This document shows positions 8,312 through 30,632 of a stretch of DNA of 37,984 nt, piece by piece; position 1 is the first letter of the stretch, and every line of letters begins with the position of its first letter. Source of the DNA: a virus. The notes beneath the pieces are model-generated. The model saw nothing but the letters and a program-made list of their open reading frames with translations. It was not told the origin of the DNA and did not search any database. Position numbers and translations under genes: made by a program. The stretch covers positions 1 through 37,984 of the IMG/VR virus record IMGVR_UViG_3300036781_000188; one strand, written 5' to 3'.

Positions 8312-8758
8312 ATGGCTGCTCCTATCGGTAATCAGTTCTGGAAGCAGCGGAGCACTCACGGCCCCAAGCCGATCTTTTCCGACCCTGATGTGCTGTGGGA
8401 AGCGTGTCTAGAGTATTTCGAGTGGGTCGATGCCAACCCGCTGTATGAGGCGCAGGCGTTCGCATACCAAGGCAGCGTAAAGATCGAGAGCATCGCCAAG
8501 ATGCGCGCGATGACCATTTCGGGGCTCTGCATCTTCCTCGATGTCTCGGTGGATGCTTGGGAAGATTACCGCAAAGGGAAAGATTTAGGCGGAGTCACCA
8601 CGCGGGTGGAACAGATCATCCGCGATCAGAAGTTCTCAGGCGCCGCTGCCGGGCTGCTCAACCCCAACATCATCGCTCGCGATCTAGGGCTTGCCGACAA
8701 GCAGGAGCACACGGGCGGCCTAAGCGTGGTGATCTCACCCTCCGATGCCGAACTATAA
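8312..8758 (+). CDS. Terminase small subunit, P22 gp3-like
   Basis: A 148-residue protein that binds the packaging site and recruits the large terminase. It shows the gp3-type signature: [17 protein letters not shown] at the start, [29 protein letters not shown], then [21 protein letters not shown] and [12 protein letters not shown]. The length matches the family. GGATGGA lies upstream. The last 14 bases overlap the large subunit. By analogy with P22, the DNA-recognition pac site may lie within or near this gene; I cannot place it. Confidence 0.9.
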
Positions 8759-10067
8759 GCCCAACCCCGGCCAGCAGCGGGCAACCGCTCTCCTGACCGG
8801 CCCCCAACGTCACACCCTGCTCGCGGGAGGCGCGCGCTCCGGCAAGACGTTCCTGCTCACTCGGGCCGTGGTGGTCCGCGCGCTGAGAGCGGAAGGCTCA
8901 AGACATGCTATCCTTCGGTTTCGCGGCAATGCTGCCCGAGCATCGATCGGCTTGGACACTCTGCCCAAGGTGATGTCTGTCTGCTTCCCAGACGTGAAGC
9001 TAACGGAACATCGTCAGGATGGTTTCTTCGAACTGCCGAATAAGTCGCAAATTTGGGTTGGCGGCTTGGATGATAAGGAGCGCGTTGAGAAGATCCTCGG
9101 GCAGGAATATTGCACCCTCTATTTTAATGAGTGTTCGCAGATCCCTTACTCGTCCGTGATGGTCGCGCGCACCCGTCTGGCGCAGCAGGTCGATGGGCTG
9201 AAACAGCGGGCCTACTACGATCTGAACCCTGGCGGCGCGAACCACTGGACCAACCTCGAGTTCGGCAGGCACGTCGATCCGGGCTCCGGACAAGCTCTGC
9301 CCGATCCCGACAACTACCAGCGTGCGTTCATCAACCCCCAAGAAAACTCGGACAATCTATCTAGTGAGTTTCTGACCAGCCTGAGCAACCTGCCTACCAA
9401 GCAGCGCAAGCGGTTCTTTGAAGGCGAATACATTGAGGAGATCGACGGGGCGCTCTGGACCATCGAAAAGTTGGACCAGCACCGTGCGGATGTAAGCCCT
9501 GACCTGAAACGCATAGTTATAGCCGTCGACCCTTCGGGTTGCTCTGGCGACGAAGACACCAGGTCGGACGAAGTCGGCATCATCGTGGCAGGTCTCGGTG
9601 AAGATGGAGCGGCGTATATCCTTGAGGACTTGAGCGGGCATCACGGGCCGGCCGGCTGGGCTGCGCTTGTCGTCTCGGCTTACGAACGCTGGGGCGCGGA
9701 TTGCGTGATCGCTGAAACGAACTACGGGGGCGCCATGGTGAAGGAAGTCATCAAGGCGCACGGCGCGCACCTGCCATTTCGGGAGGTCAAGGCCTCGCGT
9801 GGCAAACATGTCCGGGCGGAGCCGATCGCCACGCTTTATTCACAGGGCAAGGTTCGCCACTTCGGTCGGTTCCCTCGGCTCGAGGATCAACTGCTGGCGT
9901 TCTCCGCGGCTGGCTATACCGGCGACAAGTCACCCGACCGGGCTGACGCAGCTGTTTGGGCGATCTCTGATTTGTTCCCGTCGATCGTTGCCACCAAGAA
10001 ATCATCGACAATGCCCAAACTCCAAGCCCCAGGCAATCTCGGTGCACAAGGATGGATGGGCCGATGA
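8745..10067 (+). CDS. Terminase large subunit (packaging ATPase and nuclease)
   Basis: A 440-residue motor that drives DNA into the prohead and cuts the concatemer. Walker A is GGARSGKT at residues 28-35 and the Walker B/catalytic carboxylate is YFNE at 126-129. The nuclease domain begins at AVDPSG (D262), with a later acidic pair in DRADAAVW near residue 408. Length is normal for the Terminase_6-type family. It overlaps the small subunit by 14 bases and precedes the portal by 21 bases. By analogy with P22, headful packaging is likely. Confidence 0.95.
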
Positions 10068-10088
10068 TTAGCGTATGCGAGGCTGTTC

Positions 10089-12287
10089 GTGGCTGACGTT
10101 GACGATGATGCTGACAACAGCGACCTCAGGGACAATGAGAAGATTGTCAAAGAGGCTCGCGAGCGCTTTGCGGTCTGCGAAGGCTATTACTCGTACGCCT
10201 ATTCCATGTGGCGGGAAGACTACCGCTTCGGGCACGCCGATTCCGACAACATGGCCCAGTGGCCCGACGCGATGCTGACGACGCGAGAAATCGCGCAGAA
10301 GCCGACGCTGATCATCAACAAGACCCGTATCCACTGCCTGCAGATCGTCAACGATGCCAAGCAGAACAAGCCGGGCATTGTGGTGCACCCCACCACGACC
10401 GAGGCAACCTATCGCGCTGCCGAAATCTTCGAGGATGTGGTACGACACATCGAATATCGATCCCGCGCCCAGCAAGCTTATGACAAGGCGAGCGAGAACC
10501 AGGTGTTCGGGGGTCTCGGCTTTTGCCGCGTCACGACCGAATATGCCAGCGCGAACGGCTTCGATCAGGAAATCCGTATCGGCGGCGTTCGCGACCCGCT
10601 GTCGATCTACATGGACCCCGACGCCAAGGAGACCGACAAGTCGGACGCCGAGTACGGCTTTGAATTCGATGACATGTCGGTGGAGAAGTTCAAGCGCGAT
10701 TACCCAGGCCACCCCGAGGCGGTAAACGCCGCCACCCTGAACAACACCTCGTTCGATGGCTGGCTGACCAAAGAGCATGTGCGCGTTGCCAACTACTGGC
10801 GCAAGAGGCACAAGAAGGTGGTTCTGGTCTCCATTCTGGACCCGAATACGGGCGAGCGGCGCACGGTTCCGAAAAAGACCCTCAGTCCTGAACTGATCAA
10901 GTTGATCAAGCGGGACAAGTCGTGGGACTACCGCGAGCGCGACAGTGACGAAGTGACCGTCGAGTGCATCAAGATCGCCGGCAGCTCGGTGATCGACCGG
11001 TACGACTGGCTGGGCAAGTGGATTCCGCTTGTGCCGTGTATCGGAGAGGAAGTGATCCTCGATGGCCAGTTGGACCTCAAGGGCCATGTGCGCTATCTCA
11101 AGGATGCGCAACGCATGTACAACTACAACACTTCCGCAGAGGTGGAATTCGGCGCACTGCAGACCAAAATCCCATTCCTCGGGCCAGCCGACGCCTTCGA
11201 GGGCTACGAGGAATACTACGCCAACGCGAACCTGCAGAACCTGGGGTTTCTGCCTTACAAGCACCGTGACGACCAAGGGCAGGAGATCCCTGCTCCCAAG
11301 CGCGTAGACCCGCCCCAGATGTCGGCAGTCTACCTGAAGGGCATGGAGATCGCCCAGCAGGAGCTGATGATGGCTTCCGGCCAGTATCAGTCGCAGATGG
11401 GTGAGCAGGAAAACGCCAAGTCGGGCAAGGCGATTGCCGAGCGCCAGCGTCAGGGTGACAATGCGACTTACCATTTTGTGGATAACCACGCGATCATGGT
11501 CCGCCAGATCGGCCGCATCGTGGTGGACCTGATCCCCAAGATTTACGACACAACCCGCATTCTCCGCATCCGCGGCGACGATGGCATGATGAAGAACATC
11601 ACCATCGACCCGCAGGCTCAGCAGGCCGTGCAGGAGCAGAAGGACATCCAGCGTCAGGAGGTCGAGATCATCTTCAACCCGAACGTAGGCGAGTATGCGG
11701 TTGAGGTAGATGTGGGTCCGAGCTTTGCGACAAAGCGCCAGGAAGCTTGGAACGCCATCGTTCAAATTCTCACGCAGTCCCCGCAGCTCATCCCGATCGT
11801 GGGCGATCTGCTGTTCCAGAATGCCGACTTCCCGGGCGCCGACGAAATCGCGGTCCGCCTCCGTCGCATGACGCCGCCCCAGGCCCTTGGCGACAATCCT
11901 TCGCCGCAGGACGAACAGATGCAGGCTCATATCGGCCAGCTTACCCAGCTTGTGGCGGAATTGAACCAGAAGCTTGTTAACAAAGACGCCGACGCCAACA
12001 TTCGTGCGTTCGAGGCGTCGGTCAAAGCCTTCGAGGCCATGTCCAAGCGGCTGCAGGTTATCGGCAACGCCGGACCAATCGTTACGCCCGAGCAGGAACA
12101 GCCGATCATCGCTGCCACGCTGGGCAATATGCAGATGCAGCCGACGCCGGACGCGGTGCCTCAGCCGCAGATTCCTCAGATGCAGCAGCCCATGCCTGAT
12201 CCGATGTCTGGAGCGCCGGGCGCTCCGGCGCCTGCCCCAGATGAGCCGTTGATGCCTCCTCAGCAAGTTGTGGGCCCGCAGGGATGA
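10089..12287 (+). CDS. Portal protein, P22 gp1-like
   Basis: A 732-residue P22-type portal, close to the 725 residues of P22 gp1; it forms the DNA entry ring at one head vertex. GTG 10089 is the start, with GCGAGG at 10077-10082. The N-terminal half has the stem and wing region (MTTREIAQKPTLIINKTR-like, then FCRVTTEY and DPLSIYMDPDA). The C-terminal third is a long helical barrel with Gln-rich segments and a Pro/Gln/Met-rich tail. It ends in an ATGA overlap with the next gene. Antisense reading frames across it are composition artefacts. Confidence 0.92.
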   Translation: MADVDDDADNSDLRDNEKIVKEARERFAVCEGYYSYAYSMWREDYRFGHADSDNMAQWPDAMLTTREIAQKPTLIINKTRIHCLQIVNDAKQNKPGIVVHPTTTEATYRAAEIFEDVVRHIEYRSRAQQAYDKASENQVFGGLGFCRVTTEYASANGFDQEIRIGGVRDPLSIYMDPDAKETDKSDAEYGFEFDDMSVEKFKRDYPGHPEAVNAATLNNTSFDGWLTKEHVRVANYWRKRHKKVVLVSILDPNTGERRTVPKKTLSPELIKLIKRDKSWDYRERDSDEVTVECIKIAGSSVIDRYDWLGKWIPLVPCIGEEVILDGQLDLKGHVRYLKDAQRMYNYNTSAEVEFGALQTKIPFLGPADAFEGYEEYYANANLQNLGFLPYKHRDDQGQEIPAPKRVDPPQMSAVYLKGMEIAQQELMMASGQYQSQMGEQENAKSGKAIAERQRQGDNATYHFVDNHAIMVRQIGRIVVDLIPKIYDTTRILRIRGDDGMMKNITIDPQAQQAVQEQKDIQRQEVEIIFNPNVGEYAVEVDVGPSFATKRQEAWNAIVQILTQSPQLIPIVGDLLFQNADFPGADEIAVRLRRMTPPQALGDNPSPQDEQMQAHIGQLTQLVAELNQKLVNKDADANIRAFEASVKAFEAMSKRLQVIGNAGPIVTPEQEQPIIAATLGNMQMQPTPDAVPQPQIPQMQQPMPDPMSGAPGAPAPAPDEPLMPPQQVVGPQG

Positions 12288-13846: not shown

Positions 13847-14803
13847 ATGACGACTTCTGCCATCATGCGTGCTGCCAACTACCTCGGCGCTCCCCGCGTC
13901 GTGTCCTATCCCGATCCCGAGGACGCCCCGGCTGCTGCGGCCCCTGCGGCTGAGCCTGTCGCCGTAGCCCACGCCTCCGATGACATCCCCGTTGAGACTT
14001 CCTCCCGCGAGCCGCTGGTTGTTGCCAAGGAAGCCCCGGTCGAGACTGAAGGCAACGTGGCTGATGAAGGGGTCACGGCCGATGCTGGCGCCGCGGATGG
14101 CGAACGCCGGAAGCCGCCCAAGCTGCCCGACTGGGCCCAGGCACAGCTCAACAACATGGCAGCCGAGAAGCGCATCGCCGAGCGCGAAGCCAAGCGCATG
14201 GCGGATGAACTCGCTGCGCTGCGCAATCCTCCCGCTGCGGCCTCGGCTGCTACGCAGGCGGATGCTGCGGCCGCTCAGGAAGCCGCCCCGAACGGGGGTT
14301 ACAGAACGCAAGCCGACTTCGATGCAGCCGTCGAAGCTGCGGCCGCCAAGCGCGAGGCGACTGTACGTGCGCAGCAGGCTCAGGCGGATTTTGACGCGGC
14401 ATGCAATGCCGCCTATCAGTCGGGCAAGGCCCACCCCGAAATGGCAGATCATTTTGACGACGCCGTAAAGAACCTCCAGAGTCTCGGCTTCATGAACCGC
14501 GACATGTTGGATCTGGTCGTGGCCACCGAAGACCCGGCCAAGGTGCTGTTCGAACTCGGCAGCGATCCTGACAAAGCGGCGTCTATCCTCTCGCTCCCGC
14601 TGGCCAAGCGCGCCGTGGAGATCGCCAAGCTTTCCGTGGTGCCTGCGGCCAAGAAGGCCCCCGTGCCGCTGTCCAATGCTCCTCGCCCTGTTACCCCGAT
14701 CGATGGGAGCGCCCGCACCAGTGCGGAGCCCAGCGACAACGACAGCGACGAGGTGTTCTTTGCCAAGCGTGAAGCCCAGCTTCGCGCCAAAAACGCAGCC
14801 TGA
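13847..14803 (+). CDS. Scaffolding protein
   Basis: A 318-residue protein, Ala/Pro/Glu-rich at the N-terminus and then strongly helical with coiled-coil character (AEKRIAEREAKRMADELAALR; AAKREATVRAQQAQADF). This composition, its length and its place between portal and coat identify it as the internal scaffold, corresponding to P22 gp8 in position. It would copolymerise with the coat protein and leave the prohead on maturation. The C-terminal basic end (FAKREAQLRAKNAA) is where P22 gp8 binds coat. AAAGGTG lies upstream. Confidence 0.8.
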   Translation: MTTSAIMRAANYLGAPRVVSYPDPEDAPAAAAPAAEPVAVAHASDDIPVETSSREPLVVAKEAPVETEGNVADEGVTADAGAADGERRKPPKLPDWAQAQLNNMAAEKRIAEREAKRMADELAALRNPPAAASAATQADAAAAQEAAPNGGYRTQADFDAAVEAAAAKREATVRAQQAQADFDAACNAAYQSGKAHPEMADHFDDAVKNLQSLGFMNRDMLDLVVATEDPAKVLFELGSDPDKAASILSLPLAKRAVEIAKLSVVPAAKKAPVPLSNAPRPVTPIDGSARTSAEPSDNDSDEVFFAKREAQLRAKNAA

Positions 14804-15041
14804 CGACAAACTGATCCGACCGCGGCCCGGATAATGGCCGTTGAAGCGCTCGCATAAACTATGCGCCTGACGAGCAGCGCATCGGACCCGGCACGATAGT
14901 CCCGAGACGGCCCGCTTTCACCTCGCTTACGGGCAGCGAGAACCCCACCCGGCACAGCACCATCGGCATAACCACCCGCCAACCAGCGGGCGCCTTTGCG
15001 CGTGCCTCGAAAGCAAAACAGGCCAATCGAGGATATTCCCA
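14804..15041 (+). other. 238-base gap between scaffold and coat genes
   Basis: No supported gene lies here. Imperfect hairpins such as CGGCC...GGCCG (about 14821-14839) and CCCGC...GCGGG (about 14975-14992) are visible; neither has a convincing T-run. The gap may hold a promoter or an mRNA-stability element for the strongly expressed coat gene, but I see no clear promoter. Confidence 0.4.
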
Positions 15042-20668: not shown

Positions 20669-20737
20669 GCGGCCTCCTACGGAGGTTACTGGCCTTCCAA
20701 GCCGGGGATGACGGTTCGAGTCCGTCAGGCCGCTCCA
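20669..20737 (+). tRNA. tRNA-Gly (UCC), compact
   Basis: GCGGCCT (20669-20675) pairs with AGGCCGC (20727-20733), followed by T and an encoded CCA (20735-20737). The anticodon stem CTGGC/GCCGG surrounds CTTCCAA with anticodon TCC (20696-20698). The T arm is GACGG-TTCGAGT-CCGTC. U73 fits glycine identity. Only 13 bases lie between acceptor and anticodon stems, so the D arm is short (possible CCT/AGG stem). Phage-encoded; reads GGA. Confidence 0.8.
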
Positions 20738-20747
20738 ATATAACCGC

Positions 20748-20822
20748 ATCGGTGTGTTGTAACGGTAGCATGTGGGTCTCCAAAACCCTGCGGCAGAGGT
20801 TCGAATCCTCTCACCGTTGCCA
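20748..20822 (+). tRNA. tRNA-Trp (CCA)
   Basis: ATCGGTG (20748-20754) pairs with CACCGTT (20812-20818) except for one T-T mismatch; G73 and CCA follow (20819-20822). The anticodon loop CTCCAAA gives CCA, and the T arm is AGAGG-TTCGAAT-CCTCT. G73 fits tryptophan identity. The D-arm stem is about three pairs. It follows the Gly tRNA after ten bases, and a terminator comes six bases later, so the two are likely processed from one transcript. Confidence 0.85.
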
Positions 20823-22301: not shown

Positions 22302-23619
22302 CATCGACACTTCATTCTACCCGAAATCCAACCCTAACGGCTTCCTCGACACGGCGGGCGGGTTTGTCGGGCTGGCCAATCAGGCTCAGCAAAATCAGCT
22401 TCTAAAGACCCAGAACAAGCAGACTCAGCTTGACCTCGTGAACAACCAGGTGGGGTCTCTGGTCAACGGCTTTTCGACGTTGGCCGCGATCCCGGGTCTG
22501 AACGCTCAGCATTTTGCTGACTTCGGCCAACGCATGGTGGACGAGGGCGTGATCTCGCCCGAGATATTCTCGGCCGAAATGAAGCAGGTACAGGGTACCG
22601 GCGGCGATCCTGACGCGCTTCGCGCGCTCGCTGGCAATTACGGTCTCCGCGCATTGGAGGCCGGCAAGCGCTTTGAAGTGCAATACGGCTCTCCGCAACT
22701 GATTGATCAGGGAAACGCGCTACTGCCGGTCACGACTTCGCCCCTGACTGGCATTCATCCGATGGGTGCCGCAATCCCAAAGACTTTGTCGCCAACCGAA
22801 CTCTCCGAAAGCGCAACGATAGGGACCACCCCAGAAGGGCAGCCGATTACCGGCACCAAAGGCCAGTTGCTGGAAAAGCAGGGGGTCAATCCACTCACGG
22901 CTCTCCCCAATCCCCAGCCGCTCAATCCGAACAACCCGCTTATGCCGGCTGTGCCCGCACAGCCAGGTGTAGTGACGACCTTGCCGGCCGGCGATGTGGC
23001 GGCGATGGAAGAGACCGGCCGCACCGCTGGCCAGGACCTCGCAGCCGCACGTATCCGTGAGACCAACTTCCAGCGCGATATCCTGCCGCTCACCAAGGCT
23101 ATCCCGGCGTTGGAAGCGCTGGGCAAGACCGGCACGGGCCCCGGAACCGAACAAATCAACGAAATCGCGTCGTTCCTGCAGTCGATGGGCGTGCCCGGCA
23201 TCGACGCCACGAAGGTGAAGAATTTCGATGAGGTGCGAAAGTACCTGTCGCAGTACGCTCAGTCGGGCGACCCCAGCACCAACGACAAGCTGGCCGCTGC
23301 GTTCGCCGCCAACCCCAGCGTGGGGGTATCGAACGCCGCAGCGGTGGACGTGGCGAAGACGGCGCTGGCCTTGCGCAAGCTGCAGAATGCCCAACTGATG
23401 GCGTTCGAGGATTCGGGTCTGCCGGAATCTCAGTACACGAAGTTTGCGGCGCAGTTCAATGCCGGCCAAGACCCACGAGCCTATGGTATCGACATGATGG
23501 ACGACAAGGCACGGGCCGCACTGATTGGCGATATGCAGAAACGAGCTGCGGACGACCCGGAGAGAGTTCGGTTTCTGACTTCTCTCCGGATGGCTAAAAA
23601 GCTGAAGTTGATCCCCTGA
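22294..23619 (+). CDS. Ejection / internal virion protein, P22 gp20-like position
   Basis: A 441-residue helical protein between two ejection proteins, in the place of P22 gp20. The N-terminal half is rich in Gln and Asn (ANQAQQNQLLKTQNKQTQLD) as in other internal virion proteins; there is a Pro/Asn linker around residues 205-230, and the C-terminal half has long charged helices. No catalytic motif. The overlap of eight bases with the gene before and the TGATGG overlap with the next imply coordinated synthesis of all three ejection proteins. Confidence 0.7.
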   Translation: MADIDTSFYPKSNPNGFLDTAGGFVGLANQAQQNQLLKTQNKQTQLDLVNNQVGSLVNGFSTLAAIPGLNAQHFADFGQRMVDEGVISPEIFSAEMKQVQGTGGDPDALRALAGNYGLRALEAGKRFEVQYGSPQLIDQGNALLPVTTSPLTGIHPMGAAIPKTLSPTELSESATIGTTPEGQPITGTKGQLLEKQGVNPLTALPNPQPLNPNNPLMPAVPAQPGVVTTLPAGDVAAMEETGRTAGQDLAAARIRETNFQRDILPLTKAIPALEALGKTGTGPGTEQINEIASFLQSMGVPGIDATKVKNFDEVRKYLSQYAQSGDPSTNDKLAAAFAANPSVGVSNAAAVDVAKTALALRKLQNAQLMAFEDSGLPESQYTKFAAQFNAGQDPRAYGIDMMDDKARAALIGDMQKRAADDPERVRFLTSLRMAKKLKLIP

Positions 23620-26117
23620 TGGCATCCAAAGCGCAAAAGTACCTCGAAGGCTTCGTTGCCCGCGGCTTCACGCCCGTGCAGGCAGCCGTGCTGGCGGGGA
23701 ATTTCGCTCAGGAGAGCGGGTTCAACCCCGAAGCCTACAACCCCGACGAAAATGCTTATGGCGGCTTGCAGTGGCGCCTTGACCGCAAGACCGGCCTCGA
23801 GAACTACGCCAAGGAGACCGGGCGCAAGCCTTCCGACCCAGAAGCGCAGATGGATTGGGTCGTCAAGGAAATGACCGGCAACGAAGCCGCCAACGCCGCG
23901 GCGTTCCTCGGTGCGCAGGACCCCTACACGGCCAACTCGTCGCTTAAACGATACATCAGATATGGCGACAATTCTCAGAACGCGCGGCTAGCGAACGCTT
24001 TGTCCTACATGGGCCAGACCGGCGATGCTGGCGGCAATGCGCTGATGGGTGCCCAGCCGGCGGAGGGCCCCGCCAACCCGCTGTTCGTCAACCCCTCGTT
24101 CGGCGGGGGCTCAATGCCTGGCGTGCCGCAGTGGCCAACCAGCCAGCCAGCTGCCCAGCCTGCCGCGGCAACGCCACAGGACGATAGCGCCCTGCTTGAT
24201 CAGTTCGCGCCTGCGGCAGCGCCTGCGGCAGCGCCCGCAACGGCCTCTGGCGCCCAGCCGGCCGGCCAGAGCGATGACGACCTGCTCAGTTCGTTCCTGC
24301 CGGGCGGCTCGGGCATTGACGTGCCGAGCGCAGGTGGCACTGCAGACGACGACCTGCTACGCTCGTTCATGCCATCGACGCCCGGGACGGGCGATGTCGC
24401 CATGCCGCCCGCGGGGCTCGTACCCGGATCCAAGGAATACGCCGATTGGGCGGTAGAGCAGGCGCGGGCGGGCAAGCGGCTGCCTCAGATCAGCGAGGTG
24501 CCGGAAGACCAACTTCCCCCGCCTACGGACCTGATGGACAAAATCCATGCCGGCGCAGCATCCTACATGGATGCCATGCCGGTAGTCGGGCCGGCGTGGC
24601 TGGACCTTGCTGAAAAGGCCAGGTCTGCCGTGCAGGGCATGCCGCTGGATTCCGTGAAGGCGGAAACCAAGGCGGCGCAAGAGGCTAACCCGATCACGTC
24701 CGGGGTCGCCGGGGTTGCCGGCACGGTGCTACCGCTGGTAGCCGGTGGAGCGACGACGCTTGGCGGCCGGCTGCTCGGGGTCACTGGCGGGCTGCCAGCG
24801 CAAATTGGCATGGGCGCTGCGTCCAATGCGTTGATCTCTGGTGCCGACACGCTCGCCCGCGGAGGTGACATACAGCAAGCAGGGCAAAACGCCCTTATCG
24901 GCGGGGCTATTGGCGGAGCCTTCCCCGCGGCAGGTGCCGCCGTCGGGAAGCTCGGCAATGCGCTGCTGGGCAAAACCTCCCCGGAGGTTGCGAACCTGGC
25001 CGAAGCCGCTATCAACAAATACGGCATCCCGGTCGGCCCGGGGCAGATCACCGAAAGCCCGATGGTCAAGTTCGCGGACTCGGTCGTCAACAAGATGCCT
25101 TTCAGCGGCGGCACGGTATCCAATGCCCAGCAGTCCGCTGCCTTCAACAAGGCGGTGGCCAACACATTCGGGGAGACGGCAGACAAGCTCACCCCCGACG
25201 TGATGGCGCGGGCTCGAGATCGAATTGGCGACGTATTCGAGAACGTGGCCGCCAAAACCCCCGTCATTGTGGCCGACCCGACCTTCGATCAGACCATGAT
25301 TGATGCGGTCACGAATGCCCAGATGAACCTCACCGACCAGCAGATGGGGCCCATCCTCAGGCAGTTCGACAACATCATCGGCAAATTCCAGGATGGCAAC
25401 GGCGCCATCACCGGCAAGGTCTACCAGGAGCTAACGAAAAAAGGGACGCCTCTCGATATCGCCCTCCATTCGTCGGACCCCGGCATCAGGGCGTTCGCGC
25501 GCCAGTCCCGCGAGGCTCTGGATGATGCCTTCGAGCGCTCCGCCCCGCCCGATGTCATGGGCGAACTCAAGGACGCCCGCTCCCAGTGGAAGGCGATGAA
25601 GACCGTCGAAGACCTCGTGGAGAAGTCTCCGGCGGGCGACATCAGCCCCGCGCTGCTGATGAACGCCGTGCGCAACTCCTATGACGGCATGGCCTATGGC
25701 GGCGGCGGCGACCTTGCTCAGCTGGCGAAGATCGGCCAGCAGTTCCTGAAGGCGCCCCCGTCGAGCGGCACGGCAGAACGCCTCGCTGTCATGAATATGC
25801 TGACGAAGGTCGGTGGGGCCGGCGGCCTAGCCGCAACCGCCGTAATGAACCCGGGCTCGCTCCCCATGATGGCGGCAGTAGGCGTTCCGACCGCGGCCGC
25901 ATACCTTGCCGCGGCTAAAGGTGGTGGCGCCCTGCTACGCTCGCCAGGCTTGGCAAACAAGCTGATCGGCAATTCCCTGGGCCGTGCGGCTGCGCCCGGC
26001 ACTCTATCGGGAGGCAACTTGCTACTGCGAGGGGCGTCGGGTGAAACCGCCCTGCAGAACGCAAGGCGGCCGGTAGAAATCACTGTAACTGGCGGCAATC
26101 CGCTGCTCGCTCAGTAG
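23619..26117 (+). CDS. Ejection protein with N-terminal phage lysozyme, P22 gp16-like position
   Basis: An 832-residue protein. Residues 1-130 are a phage tail-lysozyme-type domain (FVARGFTPVQAAVLAGNFAQ, ESGFNP with candidate catalytic Glu32, then DENAYGGLQWR), which would open the peptidoglycan for DNA entry. Residues 145-255 are Pro/Ala-rich with three DDxLLxxFxP-type repeats. Residues 345-420 are Gly/Ala-rich and hydrophobic, likely membrane-inserting, and the C-terminal 400 are mostly helical. Position and layout match P22 gp16, which in P22 has no lysozyme domain that I know of. The 3' end overlaps the convergent gene at 26111 by seven bases. Confidence 0.8.
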   Translation: MASKAQKYLEGFVARGFTPVQAAVLAGNFAQESGFNPEAYNPDENAYGGLQWRLDRKTGLENYAKETGRKPSDPEAQMDWVVKEMTGNEAANAAAFLGAQDPYTANSSLKRYIRYGDNSQNARLANALSYMGQTGDAGGNALMGAQPAEGPANPLFVNPSFGGGSMPGVPQWPTSQPAAQPAAATPQDDSALLDQFAPAAAPAAAPATASGAQPAGQSDDDLLSSFLPGGSGIDVPSAGGTADDDLLRSFMPSTPGTGDVAMPPAGLVPGSKEYADWAVEQARAGKRLPQISEVPEDQLPPPTDLMDKIHAGAASYMDAMPVVGPAWLDLAEKARSAVQGMPLDSVKAETKAAQEANPITSGVAGVAGTVLPLVAGGATTLGGRLLGVTGGLPAQIGMGAASNALISGADTLARGGDIQQAGQNALIGGAIGGAFPAAGAAVGKLGNALLGKTSPEVANLAEAAINKYGIPVGPGQITESPMVKFADSVVNKMPFSGGTVSNAQQSAAFNKAVANTFGETADKLTPDVMARARDRIGDVFENVAAKTPVIVADPTFDQTMIDAVTNAQMNLTDQQMGPILRQFDNIIGKFQDGNGAITGKVYQELTKKGTPLDIALHSSDPGIRAFARQSREALDDAFERSAPPDVMGELKDARSQWKAMKTVEDLVEKSPAGDISPALLMNAVRNSYDGMAYGGGGDLAQLAKIGQQFLKAPPSSGTAERLAVMNMLTKVGGAGGLAATAVMNPGSLPMMAAVGVPTAAAYLAAAKGGGALLRSPGLANKLIGNSLGRAAAPGTLSGGNLLLRGASGETALQNARRPVEITVTGGNPLLAQ

Positions 26118-26347
26118 TTCTTCAGCCAAACAGCCAGCATGATGCCAGCGCAGAACGCGAACATCGCCGCGACTCCGAACAGGATATCGGCGGTCATTTC
26201 TTGGCGATACACAAAGACGAACGCCAACACGGCGATCAAGACAACGAGGTAGTTTCTCGCCAACTTCGGGTCGTCCGGCAGACGCCAGCGGCCGGATTTG
26301 GGGTCGCGGATTTTGTAGTCGTTGGGGCCAAGGTCAAGATCGGGCAT
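26111..26347 (-). CDS. Two-helix membrane protein, superinfection-exclusion candidate
   Basis: A 78-residue protein. ATG 26347 is chosen since GGAG inside the end of the upstream gene is seven bases away; ATG 26374 is possible. A polar N-terminus (GPNDYKIRDPKSGRWRLPDD) is followed by two transmembrane segments (about residues 32-46 and 53-74). It is the last gene of a leftward operon after the Mnt-like and Rap1a/Tai-like genes. In P22 the leftward sieA membrane gene lies in this position, but no sequence match is claimed. A lysogen-expressed membrane exclusion protein is the most attractive role. Confidence 0.6.
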   Translation of the reverse strand: MPDLDLGPNDYKIRDPKSGRWRLPDDPKLARNYLVVLIAVLAFVFVYRQEMTADILFGVAAMFAFCAGIMLAVWLKNY

Positions 26348-26351
26348 TCCC

Positions 26352-26699
26352 TCACTCCGGGCACTTATAAGCATCGGCTAGCGTCCAAAACACCATCACC
26401 ACCGCAGACGTTTCAGGAGGCGTTGCGGGCGGAAGACGTGAGGTTATCAATGCCTGGCGCTTTTGCTCGGCGCTCACCCCGTCTGGCATGCAAGCGAGAT
26501 GCCCAGCGGAGAGCGCTTTAGCAGCTTCGGTGTACCCAGAAAGATACCCATAACAGAACTGAATGCCTGGGCTGTCATCGGAACAGAGTTCTATCAGTTG
26601 TCTTCCGGTAAGGTACTGGGCGCCAACTGATTGCATCGGCGAAATGACGCCGCCCGCCACCAGAGAGAACAGCAACCACAGGGCATTTCTTCGTCTCAT
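26352..26699 (-). CDS. Exported Rap1a/Tai-like protein
   Basis: A 115-residue protein with a Sec-type signal peptide ([17 protein letters not shown], cleavage expected near residue 27). The mature part follows the Rap1a/Tai immunity-protein pattern: [27 protein letters not shown] and a terminal YKC, with cysteines at 39, 49, 70 and 113 that could form two disulfides. Rap1a-type proteins neutralise a type VI peptidoglycan amidase effector in the periplasm. In this phage it could protect a lysogen or modify the envelope. It overlaps the Mnt-like stop by four bases. Confidence 0.7.
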
Positions 26700-26974
26700 C
26701 CTCGCCTCCTCATGGCTTCCTCGAACTCGCGCCGCACCTTCGGGTCGGTGGCGAGTGTGTCGTTAAGATGATCCAGAACCCGCATCATTTCTGAGATTAC
26801 GGGGCTCAGATCGGCCCCAGCAGGAGCATCGAAGCTGCTTTCTAGCCGGGCAACGATTTCGCTGTTCATCGAGCGACCGTTGGCTTTGGCGACCTCAGCA
26901 ATGCGGTCGCGCATGCCTTCCGGAAGGCGGAGATTGAACTGGTCTGAACCGCGGCTGGGGATGCGTGTCGTCAT
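26696..26974 (-). CDS. Mnt-like ribbon-helix-helix repressor
   Basis: A 92-residue protein with an Arc/Mnt ribbon-helix-helix domain: [20 protein letters not shown] then [14 protein letters not shown], almost the classic P22 Mnt sequence pattern, plus a C-terminal coiled-coil segment ([15 protein letters not shown]) that could make tetramers as in Mnt. ATG 26974 has no good ribosome site: GGGGAG lies 20 bases upstream. It faces away from the Arc-like gene across a 89-base region with overlapping promoters, and continues into two leftward genes. Likely represses the antirepressor in the lysogen. Confidence 0.8.
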
Positions 26975-27002
26975 TGCATGGTAGCGGCAACATACTCCCC
27001 GG

Positions 27003-27032
27003 TTGACATCAATGGTCTGTCGATCATATGAT
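27003..27032 (+). promoter_or_regulatory. Rightward promoter of the Arc-like / KilA-N genes
   Basis: TTGACA (27003-27008), an 18-base spacer and TATGAT (27027-27032) form a strong sigma-70 promoter. Start of transcription would be near 27039, 25 bases before the ATG at 27064. It is the counterpart of P22 Pant by position. Confidence 0.7.
27023..27032. promoter_or_regulatory. Palindromic operator candidate shared by two -10 boxes
   Basis: ATCATATGAT is a perfect ten-base palindrome. It contains TATGAT on each strand, so it is the -10 of both the rightward and the leftward promoter. A ribbon-helix-helix dimer or tetramer bound here would switch both off. A second short palindrome, GGTAATACC, is at 27038-27046. 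Confidence 0.55.
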
Positions 27033-27052
27033 ATGCCGGTAATACCAACCAA
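27023..27052 (-). promoter_or_regulatory. Leftward promoter of the Mnt-like operon
   Basis: On the minus strand TTGGTT (27052-27047), an 18-base spacer and TATGAT (27028-27023) face the rightward promoter. Transcription would begin near 27016 and give a leader of about 42 bases. The -35 has only the TTG in common with consensus, so it is weaker than the rightward promoter. Confidence 0.45.
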
Positions 27053-27063
27053 GGAGCAGGCGC

Positions 27064-27288
27064 ATGCCGCGCCATGACGACCAGTTCAACCTCCGCCTTC
27101 CGGAAGGCTGGCGAGAGGCGATCAAAAGCCAGGCTGTAAAAAGCCGGCGTTCTATGAACAGCGAAATCCTCGCCGCGCTTGAGAGTGTGGTGGAGCAGGC
27201 AGCGACGGGGAATGAGTTTGGCGACCAAGTCCCCGCCGCTGCCGATCAGAACGGAGCCTTGCAGGGCTCCATTCGCACCAACGGCTAA
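27064..27288 (+). CDS. Arc-like ribbon-helix-helix repressor
   Basis: A 74-residue protein with [18 protein letters not shown] and [16 protein letters not shown], the same ribbon and helix-turn blocks found in P22 Arc (53 residues) and in the divergent Mnt-like gene. The extra 20-residue tail is polar. AAGGAG at 27051-27056 is seven bases before the ATG. It is first in the rightward operon and 14 bases ahead of the KilA-N gene, as arc precedes ant in P22. Probably represses its own operon. Confidence 0.8.
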
Positions 27289-27302
27289 ACAGGAGCCATC
27301 GG

Positions 27303-28082
27303 ATGACCAATTCTATCACGACGTTGCCGCTCGTCTATAAGGGAGCTGCCATTACGGACAAGGGCGAGCTTCTCTCTCTTACCGATATGTGGCGCGCCGC
27401 TGGCTCCCCGGACGGACGCGCGCCGAATGATTGGCGCGTGCTAGTATCAACGACGGAATTCGCCAACCACGTCGCAGAGATTCTCAATGCCGGGAATTCC
27501 GGCAACGAACTCTTTAAGGTAACCCGTGGCGGCAAGGCGTCGGGCACCTTCGCTCACTGGCAGATCGGCCTCGCTTACGCCAAGTATCTGAGCCCTGAAT
27601 TCCACATGTGGTGCAACCAAGTTGTCCGCGAGCGCATGGAGGGGCACAAGGCCGTCGCCACACTTTCGCCCGATGTCATGGAGCTGATCCGTCGCGACGA
27701 CGGCATCTCGAGGATGCTCGCGCACAAGGTCACGGGGATCGAAGCAACCGTGCAGACACTTGCCGCCGCGGTGGCGGCTATCGTCTCCATCGTTCAGCCG
27801 CCTAGCGTCGGCGTCTACGTCACCGGCAAGACGGCTGGCGAAATTTGGCGCATTGCTGGCTTCCCGCGCATCCGTATCACCAGCTGGTTCAGCAACCGGC
27901 TGTGCGAGATGAACTGCCATATCGACGGCAACCGACGCAACCCGGTCGGGCTCGACCGCGCAAAACTGTTCGACCCCGATAAGGCGGAGAACTGGCTGAA
28001 GAACGGCGGCCGCGCGCTCGTTGAAGAGTACGTCAAAGAGCGGCAGGGGCAGAAGAAGCTCCGGCTCGTCTCTGCGAACTGA
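27303..28082 (+). CDS. KilA-N domain antirepressor-like protein
   Basis: A 259-residue protein with an N-terminal KilA-N DNA-binding domain (about residues 10-115): YKGAAITDKGELLSLTDMWR, NDWRVLVSTTEF, then GGKASGTFAHWQIGLAYAKY and LSPEFHMWCNQVVRERM. A coiled linker (about 130-165) precedes a C-terminal domain (TAGEIWRIAGFPRIRITSWF...), perhaps for binding a repressor. AGGAG lies upstream. Its place after the Arc-like gene matches P22 ant, though P22 Ant has a different N-terminal domain. Antirepressor role is inferred from module and family. Confidence 0.8.
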   Translation: MTNSITTLPLVYKGAAITDKGELLSLTDMWRAAGSPDGRAPNDWRVLVSTTEFANHVAEILNAGNSGNELFKVTRGGKASGTFAHWQIGLAYAKYLSPEFHMWCNQVVRERMEGHKAVATLSPDVMELIRRDDGISRMLAHKVTGIEATVQTLAAAVAAIVSIVQPPSVGVYVTGKTAGEIWRIAGFPRIRITSWFSNRLCEMNCHIDGNRRNPVGLDRAKLFDPDKAENWLKNGGRALVEEYVKERQGQKKLRLVSAN

Positions 28083-29103: not shown

Positions 29104-29130
29104 AAGGCCCCCATCTCGGGGGCCTTTTTC
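29104..29130 (+). terminator. Intrinsic terminator before the tailspike-like gene
   Basis: AAGGCCCCC (29104-29112) and GGGGGCCTT (29118-29126) form a nine-pair stem with ATCTC loop and TTT after it. The ribosome site GAGGAA of the next gene begins at 29134. Confidence 0.85.
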
Positions 29131-29147: not shown

Positions 29148-30632
29148 TTGGCCACTCTTCTTCCTTTGCCGAAAATCCAAATCCTCGACAGTAACGGGAA
29201 CCCGTTGGAGGGCGGCACGATCTTCACGGCTATCCCGAACACGATGACGCCGAAGGCAACGTATCAGGATGCAGACTCCCTAATACTGAACACAAACCCT
29301 ATTGTTCTGGATAATTCGGGAGAGGCCATCATTTATGGCAGCGGCATCTACCGATTTATCATCAAGGACAGCGCCGACAACTTGATTTATGATCAGCTAA
29401 CCGCCGACACATCGACCGGCGGTCTCGCCAATGGCGGCGTATCAACTGGCACTGCGAATGCTCAGGTACTGTCGGCCTCGAGCTTCAGCCAGCAGGATGG
29501 TCAGGCGATCACCTTCATCGCCGGCTTCACCAACACCACGGCCATGACGGTCGCCCCTGGCGGCGGCTCGGGCATACCGGTACTGCTCGATAGCTCGACG
29601 GGCCCGATCCCGCTCTCCGGCGGTGAAATCGTGCAGGACAACGAAGTCCTGCTTGTCTACGAGGCCGCCCGCGGCGCCTTCCACCTGGTCAATCCGACCC
29701 CCGGCAATTTCACCGGGGCGACCATCTCGAACGCTACCATCACCAGCTCCGATATCAACACCAGCTCCATCGTGCTGAAGCAGAGCACGGACCCCACGCC
29801 GACGGCTGAAGGTGATATGCAGTGGTCCACGCTGTTCGACAACTTCAAGGTCGGCTCGGGCGCTGCAACCAAGAGGTTCTGGGCCGGGGCTTCGCCGGGC
29901 GCCATTACCGGTTGCACGATTGCCAACAACGCGTCGGACGCCACCAACGACATCGACTTCGGAAGCGGCACCTGCTCGGATAGCACTGCGGCGTTCTACA
30001 TGACGCTGGGCTCCACGCTGACCAAGCGCCTCGATGCGACATGGGCGGCGGGGAACAACCAGGGCGGCCTCTTCTCCGGCTCGATTGCCAATGCCACCTA
30101 TCACTGCTTCATCATCATGCGACCGGATACCGGCGTGGTGGATGCTGGGTTCGATACGAGCCCTGTCGCAGCCAATCGGCCGGGGAGCTACACCTATTTC
30201 AGGCGAGTTGGATCCATCGTGCGGGAGAGCGCCACCATCAAGGCGTTTCACCAGGATGGGGATTATTTCTACTGGGACGTGATGACTCTCGATGACACGG
30301 TCACCACCCCGGGCACGTCTACGATCACACTCACCGTCCCGACCGGCATTTCCGTTTCCGCGCTGTTCAACGGGACGTTTACCGACAGCTCTGGCTCGAG
30401 CGGCTTCAACGGGGCGCTGTTTACCGCGCTGGATACGCCGAACACTTCGCTCAGCTCAAACGCCTTCAGTTTCGGCAGCGCCGTCGGCGGAAACGGCGAC
30501 AACCTCTTCCTCAGCGGCTCGATGCAGGTTCGCACTGACACCAGTGGGCAGGTGAGGAAGACGATCGGGGTCACCCCGACAGCCTTCGGTGTGGCGACTT
30601 ACGGCTGGATTGACCGGCGCGGTCGCACGTAA
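29148..30632 (+). CDS. Tailspike / tail fibre protein with head-binding N-terminus
   Basis: A 494-residue protein, TTG start at 29148 with GAGGAA at 29134-29139. Residues 1-90 (PKIQILDSNGNPLEGGTIF, PKATYQDADS, NTNPIVLDNSGEAIIYGSG, YRFIIKDSADNLIYD) are the head-binding domain used by P22-like and many other podovirus spikes. The rest is Thr/Ser/Gly-rich beta structure ending in a receptor-binding region (GSIVRESATIKAFHQDGDYFYW). No endorhamnosidase-like active site could be judged by eye. It follows the immI-like module as gene 9 does in P22. Confidence 0.8.
   Translation: MATLLPLPKIQILDSNGNPLEGGTIFTAIPNTMTPKATYQDADSLILNTNPIVLDNSGEAIIYGSGIYRFIIKDSADNLIYDQLTADTSTGGLANGGVSTGTANAQVLSASSFSQQDGQAITFIAGFTNTTAMTVAPGGGSGIPVLLDSSTGPIPLSGGEIVQDNEVLLVYEAARGAFHLVNPTPGNFTGATISNATITSSDINTSSIVLKQSTDPTPTAEGDMQWSTLFDNFKVGSGAATKRFWAGASPGAITGCTIANNASDATNDIDFGSGTCSDSTAAFYMTLGSTLTKRLDATWAAGNNQGGLFSGSIANATYHCFIIMRPDTGVVDAGFDTSPVAANRPGSYTYFRRVGSIVRESATIKAFHQDGDYFYWDVMTLDDTVTTPGTSTITLTVPTGISVSALFNGTFTDSSGSSGFNGALFTALDTPNTSLSSNAFSFGSAVGGNGDNLFLSGSMQVRTDTSGQVRKTIGVTPTAFGVATYGWIDRRGRT

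Follow-up and report, generated by a model that had tools for sequence, protein, structure and literature searches.

A viral DNA record of 37,984 bases (61% G+C; this whole stretch is called the window below) contains at positions 27023–27032 a 10-bp palindrome, ATCATATGAT, from which TATGAT can be read on either strand. The question raised by this site is whether it was selected as the common −10 element of two face-to-face promoters, as suggested in an earlier note on this DNA, or arose in another way, and what kind of control region surrounds it.

Predicted opposed promoters around the palindrome

The palindrome lies within the 89-bp gap separating two divergent genes (26696–26974, minus strand, and 27064–27288, plus strand) and is present in a single copy in the record, where no other site was found at ≤1 mismatch. 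Both promoters named in the earlier note were found as described. The predicted rightward promoter, TTGACA-18-TATGAT (27003–27032, plus strand), has its −35 element at 27003–27008, its −10 element at 27027–27032 and a predicted start at ~27039; it matches 11 of 12 consensus positions. Its score of 13.2 makes it the single top site on both strands of the 38-kb record, and it is very unlikely to be a chance occurrence. For scoring, we used a simple weight matrix for sigma70 that reflects base frequencies in promoters of E. coli; it took the place of a positional test at 5/6 hexamer matches that was too coarse. The leftward counterpart, TTGGTT-18-TATGAT (27023–27052, minus strand; −35 at 27052–27047, −10 at 27028–27023, predicted start ~27016), matches 8 of 12 consensus positions, and its −35 element agrees with TTGACA at only three of six. 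The score of this promoter is 7.7, a value that 18 sites of the record attain (~0.03 expected in 110 bp of a single strand); among leftward candidates between the two genes it ranks first, and by sequence it is only a fair one. The two −10 hexamers have the TA at 27027–27028 in common, and the predicted starts are separated by 23 bp.

Shared −10 elements are a known promoter class. Bidirectional promoters are defined by divergent starts 7–25 bp apart whose −10 elements overlap reciprocally (PMC10268837). Such promoters are common: by the count of Warman et al. (PMC12825309), shared symmetrical −10 elements gave rise to 19% of detected E. coli RNAs. The region studied here resembles them in that the −10 hexamers overlap on opposite strands and the distance between starts falls within this range; the commonest spacing in the class is 18 bp, compared to the 23 bp that we predict from sequence alone. 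It differs from them in that both directions are likely to be under the control of two phage repressors. Since TATAAT is nearly self-complementary, −10 elements overlap frequently by chance, namely in 25% of dinucleotide-shuffled intergenic regions having promoter-like sites in both directions. The sharing of a −10 is in itself not surprising.

A probable immunity-I-like cassette

Among the products encoded by the record are a portal (Pfam, E=6e-155) and a coat protein (E=1e-35) of the P22 type, an integrase, terminase subunits and two ejection proteins; none of its genes was recognized as that of a primary repressor. Two tRNA genes (20669–20734 and 20748–20819, plus strand) are located in the structural region and were the only elements revealed by an Rfam scan of the window. 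In P22, genes 7, 20 and 16 are followed by sieA and mnt on the minus strand, arc and ant on the plus strand, and gene 9. In the window, the position of gene 16 is held by a gene for a DNA-ejection protein (23619–26117, plus strand; phrog_26400, E=4e-50) with a phage lysozyme domain, which forms the left border of the cassette. Both divergent genes code for ribbon-helix-helix (RHH) proteins with sequence similarity to the structurally solved repressors Arc, Mnt and AmrZ: an Mnt-like one on the left (26696–26974, minus strand; Pfam Arc, E=1.7e-21) and an Arc-like one on the right (27064–27288, plus strand; Pfam Arc, E=3.5e-14). The latter gene is preceded by AAGGAG at 27052–27057, and the ATG of the former lacks a good Shine-Dalgarno sequence. 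The two proteins are 58% identical over 45 aa, and their alignment shows that both keep QFNLR at the position of the strand with which Arc contacts DNA bases.

Downstream of the Arc-like gene, in the position of P22 ant, there is a KilA-N gene (27303–28082, plus strand; Pfam KilA-N, E=8e-14), whose position makes its product probably an antirepressor. Pfam revealed no P22 Ant domain in this protein; therefore, we refer to the locus as an immI-like cassette rather than P22 immI proper. Further downstream, the gene at 29148–30632 is by its position, with no family match, a probable tail gene. It is preceded by a strong terminator-like hairpin, AAGGCCCCCATCTCGGGGGCCTT, followed by TTT (29104–29126, plus strand), that resembles the terminator of P22 ant, located ahead of gene 9. 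On the other side, the Mnt-like gene is followed on the minus strand by a small Rap1a-like gene (26352–26699; Pfam Rap1a, E=3.8e-9), which occupies the slot of P22 sieA, and by the last open reading frame of the leftward group, a small membrane-protein-like gene (26111–26374).

We consider it likely that the region controls an immunity-I cassette (immI, or ‘ant moron’, of P22) in a P22-like temperate phage, a type of locus that the earlier note missed. The gene families and their synteny are read directly from the sequence; the roles of the proteins are inferred. The likeness covers a divergent pair of Arc-family genes, arranged and oriented as in P22 with a third gene downstream, the slot past the ejection genes and before the tail gene, and, by sequence, opposed overlapping promoters of which the stronger points toward arc; such promoters are an already known feature of immI. 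It may extend to Arc-style half-sites, which as read in the window are 12 bp apart, and to a putative antisense promoter at +35 within the third gene. According to the P22 annotation, Pant occupies 14793–14821 (plus strand) and Pmnt 14798–14826 (minus strand), the Arc and Mnt operators 14798–14818 and 14822–14844, respectively, and sar RNA runs against the arc-ant junction. Pant reads TTGACA-17-TATATT and Pmnt TTGAGA-17-TATCAT, so the two P22 promoters are almost fully superposed. Counted from TTGACA, the leftward −10 is at +5 in P22 and at +20 in the window, where the leftward promoter is also weaker. The Arc and Mnt operators of P22 are separate and different in sequence, whereas those proposed below for the window are similar and overlap. 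The third gene also differs, being Ant in P22 and KilA-N here. This difference, the weakness of the leftward promoter, the poor Shine-Dalgarno sequence of the mnt-like gene, the imperfection of the putative operators and the absence of an identified primary repressor gene count against the immI reading.

The slot named ‘ant moron’ is variable (PMC2629481), in line with what we observed in relatives. In the nearest relative by ejection protein (L108, 64% identical) it holds other small genes (8481–10593), which shows that the cassette is mosaic; L108 does have a gene related to the membrane-protein-like gene of the window; with the cassette absent, L108 allowed no comparison of it. In another relative (L219), the RHH genes and operators ahead of a related KilA-N gene are different ones. 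Paracoccus phage vB_PkoS_Pkon1 and Acetobacter phage phiAX1 share with the window a divergent Arc/Arc pair followed by KilA-N, with TTGACA or TTGACG directed toward the right RHH gene; in phiAX1 one gene lies between the arc-like and KilA-N genes. Their operator sequences differ from ours and the palindromic −10 is absent. In one phage locus (L071, 4714–7843) three divergent RHH gene pairs follow one another, each with its own intergenic region.

The Arc-like proteins of the window (27220–27288), L109 (3890–3981), L219 and L009 have in common a C-terminal tail, EFGxxxPxAAx...ALQG. The DNA of this tail forms a hairpin, GGAGCC-TTGCAG-GGCTCC, whose arms are altered in L109 and L009 and still pair. 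A hairpin, GCCTTGCAGGGC, was rejected as a general RNA element: its matches were mostly in unrelated coding sequences, and true relatives were found only in L109 (identical to L213), L219 and L220.

A role of the two RHH genes in partition, or as an antitoxin-like pair, instead of in immunity control is very improbable. In its favour, the label ‘partition protein ATPase’ is attached to two PHROG families that both proteins match, and weak matches of the FitA/HicB type were found for the left protein. The P22 Mnt record bears the same label, however; neither an ATPase nor a toxin gene is adjacent, and the gene order is that of immI.

Family-wide promoter arrangement and the origin of the palindrome

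Using both RHH proteins and the KilA-N protein as queries, we gathered loci with 94 distinct intergenic regions and oriented them heuristically, with the shorter RHH gene pointing right. TTGAC directed toward the arc-like gene was found in 78 of them, compared to 13 in shuffles; in the direction away from it the numbers were 17 and 10.5. The rightward promoter sequence is thus a family-wide feature, and the promoter is presumably active. Good promoter sites in both directions were present in 46 loci (mean of shuffled sets, 11). In 16 of these 46 (35%, vs 3.5% in shuffles) the leftward −10 is located ~36 bp to the left of the rightward one, and four (9% vs 3%) have the P22-like geometry. Overlapping −10 elements occur in eight (17%) and are not enriched, given the 25% in shuffles. 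From these counts, opposed overlapping promoters are a family trait, and a shared −10 is not more frequent than in shuffled sequences. The exact promoter was found in no other viral contig; the relaxed pattern TTGACRTCAATGGTNTGTC recovered only the L008 contig.

L008, which has the nearest intergenic relative (oriented sequence TTGACGTCAATGGTATGTCAGGCATATGGTCTGCTCGACATACCA), suggests how the palindrome could have arisen. In it, TGGTATG-5-CATATGG and TGGTCTG-5-CATACCA form two Arc-style sites, which begin 10 and 26 bp past the first T of TTGACG and overlap at the TGG of CATATGG. At equal distances from TTGAC the window has two putative operators, A (TGGTCTG-tcgat-CATATGA, 27013–27031) and B (TGATATG-ccggt-AATACCA, 27029–27047), with three and two mismatches to TGGTATG/CATACCA, respectively. 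The half-sites, 7 bp each, are 12 bp apart, the spacing of the P22 Arc site. Two half-site pairs with ≤3 mismatches each arose in 0.1% of shuffles of the window intergenic region, a value that flatters the match since the half-site motif, taken from L008, L003 and L141, was picked with the window in view. A weak third operator-like site (TGGTAGC-ggcaa-CATACTC, 26979–26997; four mismatches) adjoins the mnt-like start, and a similar CATACTA is present to the left of TTGAC in L008 and L141.

Inverted repeats in the family are odd-centred, with spacers of 1, 3, 5 and 7 most enriched and those of 0, 2 and 4 hardly or not at all. The 21-bp P22 Arc operator is likewise odd-centred and ATCATATGAT is even, on which ground we rejected the palindrome as an operator centre. 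Against the two-operator reading, no perfect inverted repeat was found in the window intergenic region. Probably, the palindrome came about as a side effect where two adjoining Arc-style operators overlap head to head at CATATG. Operators A and B would together cover the core of both promoters (27013–27047), and the flanking genes are both of the Arc/Mnt type; this is in line with the earlier suggestion that repressor binding would cover both promoters. The idea of the shared palindromic −10 as a designed element found no support, given its frequency in the family, the odd-centred operators and the situation in L008. There, the rightward TATGGT is kept at the same 18 bp and the leftward counterpart reads TATGCC; therefore, use of the −10 in both directions is not conserved in L008.

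It is improbable that the palindrome was selected as the core of a bistable switch, with polymerase bound in one orientation physically excluding the opposite operon. The overlap of the −10 hexamers and the predicted starts, whose distance fits the definition of bidirectional promoters, speak for this reading, as does the strength of the rightward promoter, for interference does appear once one direction is strongly activated (PMC12825309). Against it stand the chance-level sharing of −10 elements in the family, the loss of the leftward half in L008 and the poor leftward −35. Moreover, five E. coli bidirectional promoters had basal transcription too weak for the two directions to compete (PMC12825309). 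Of the exclusion proposed in the earlier note, occupancy by one polymerase at a time follows from the geometry, and exclusion of one operon by the other is unsupported; bistability is likewise conjectural.

A somewhat unlikely, still plausible alternative is that the leftward promoter lies elsewhere or is of another kind, for example with a −10 TATGTT near 26989–26994 or activation by the Mnt-like protein, the TATGAT of the minus strand being a side effect of operator overlap. In 15 relatives the best leftward −10 is found 14 bp to the left of TTGAC, where the window has TATGTT, and the −35 proposed for the overlapping promoter is poor. Yet TATGTT has no usable −35, for which reason a promoter at this common offset of −14 was rejected, and TTGGTT-18-TATGAT is the best-scoring leftward candidate. 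As to a compacted immI switch, in which the operator overlap has been turned into a palindromic −10 used both ways, we regard it as doubtful; if true, a single 35-bp site would be contested by polymerase in both orientations and by two paralogous repressors that have one DNA-contact strand in common.

A predicted sar-like antisense RNA and the proposed logic of the cassette

Within the KilA-N gene the minus strand carries a predicted antisense promoter (27310–27337; score 9.5) that reads TAGACG-16-TAGAAT, has a TG ahead of its −10 and extends from +35 to +8 of the gene. The sar promoter of P22 extends from +35 to +7 of ant and has the same score of 9.5. The predicted RNA (27249–27303, minus strand; fold z=−2.35) consists of hairpins at 27278–27302 and 27249–27274. 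The loop of the first is complementary to the Shine-Dalgarno region of KilA-N; the second has no clear T-run, and the 3′ end given here is tentative. In 80 relatives, 32 best leftward sites score 7 or higher; 22 of them are located at offset 0–9 of the ant-position gene, 15 of these 22 at exactly +7. These sites are not fully independent of one another, since some loci are close kin. In 29 loci of this sort the fold surpasses that of shuffled sequences by a mean of 3.2 sd, and the two-hairpin form is common to the window, its relatives and P22. The Rfam sar model matched P22 and one of nine relatives scanned; it gave no match in the window, with chance-level matches only at ~27150–27400. A sar-like promoter with a predicted two-hairpin RNA, in the position of window 27235–27337 (minus strand), was observed in many of the loci L002–L211, with varied ant-position genes, and is mostly missed by this model.

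Taken as an immI-like cassette, the locus may operate as follows. The rightward promoter would express the Arc-like repressor and the KilA-N protein, and the leftward one the Mnt-like repressor and two small genes. Both RHH proteins, through QFNLR, probably bind the adjoining operators, and either of them bound at 27013–27047 would most likely block both promoters. In a prophage, the Mnt-like protein would hold the rightward KilA-N operon off. Once the phage has entered a naive cell, the first to fire would be the strong rightward promoter, and the Arc-like protein, made together with the KilA-N operon, would then shut this promoter down. Translation of the KilA-N gene is probably locked further by the short antisense RNA originating within it.

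These results would extend the logic of P22 immI, in which two Arc-family repressors and an antisense RNA guard an antirepressor, to a cassette with KilA-N, carried by a phage of high G+C content that is distant from those of enterobacteria. They also indicate that an eye-catching palindromic −10 can come from operator overlap and not from selection for a two-way promoter. The most useful lead is the sar-like RNA, with an antisense promoter that is found family-wide near +7 and lies largely outside the Rfam sar model.
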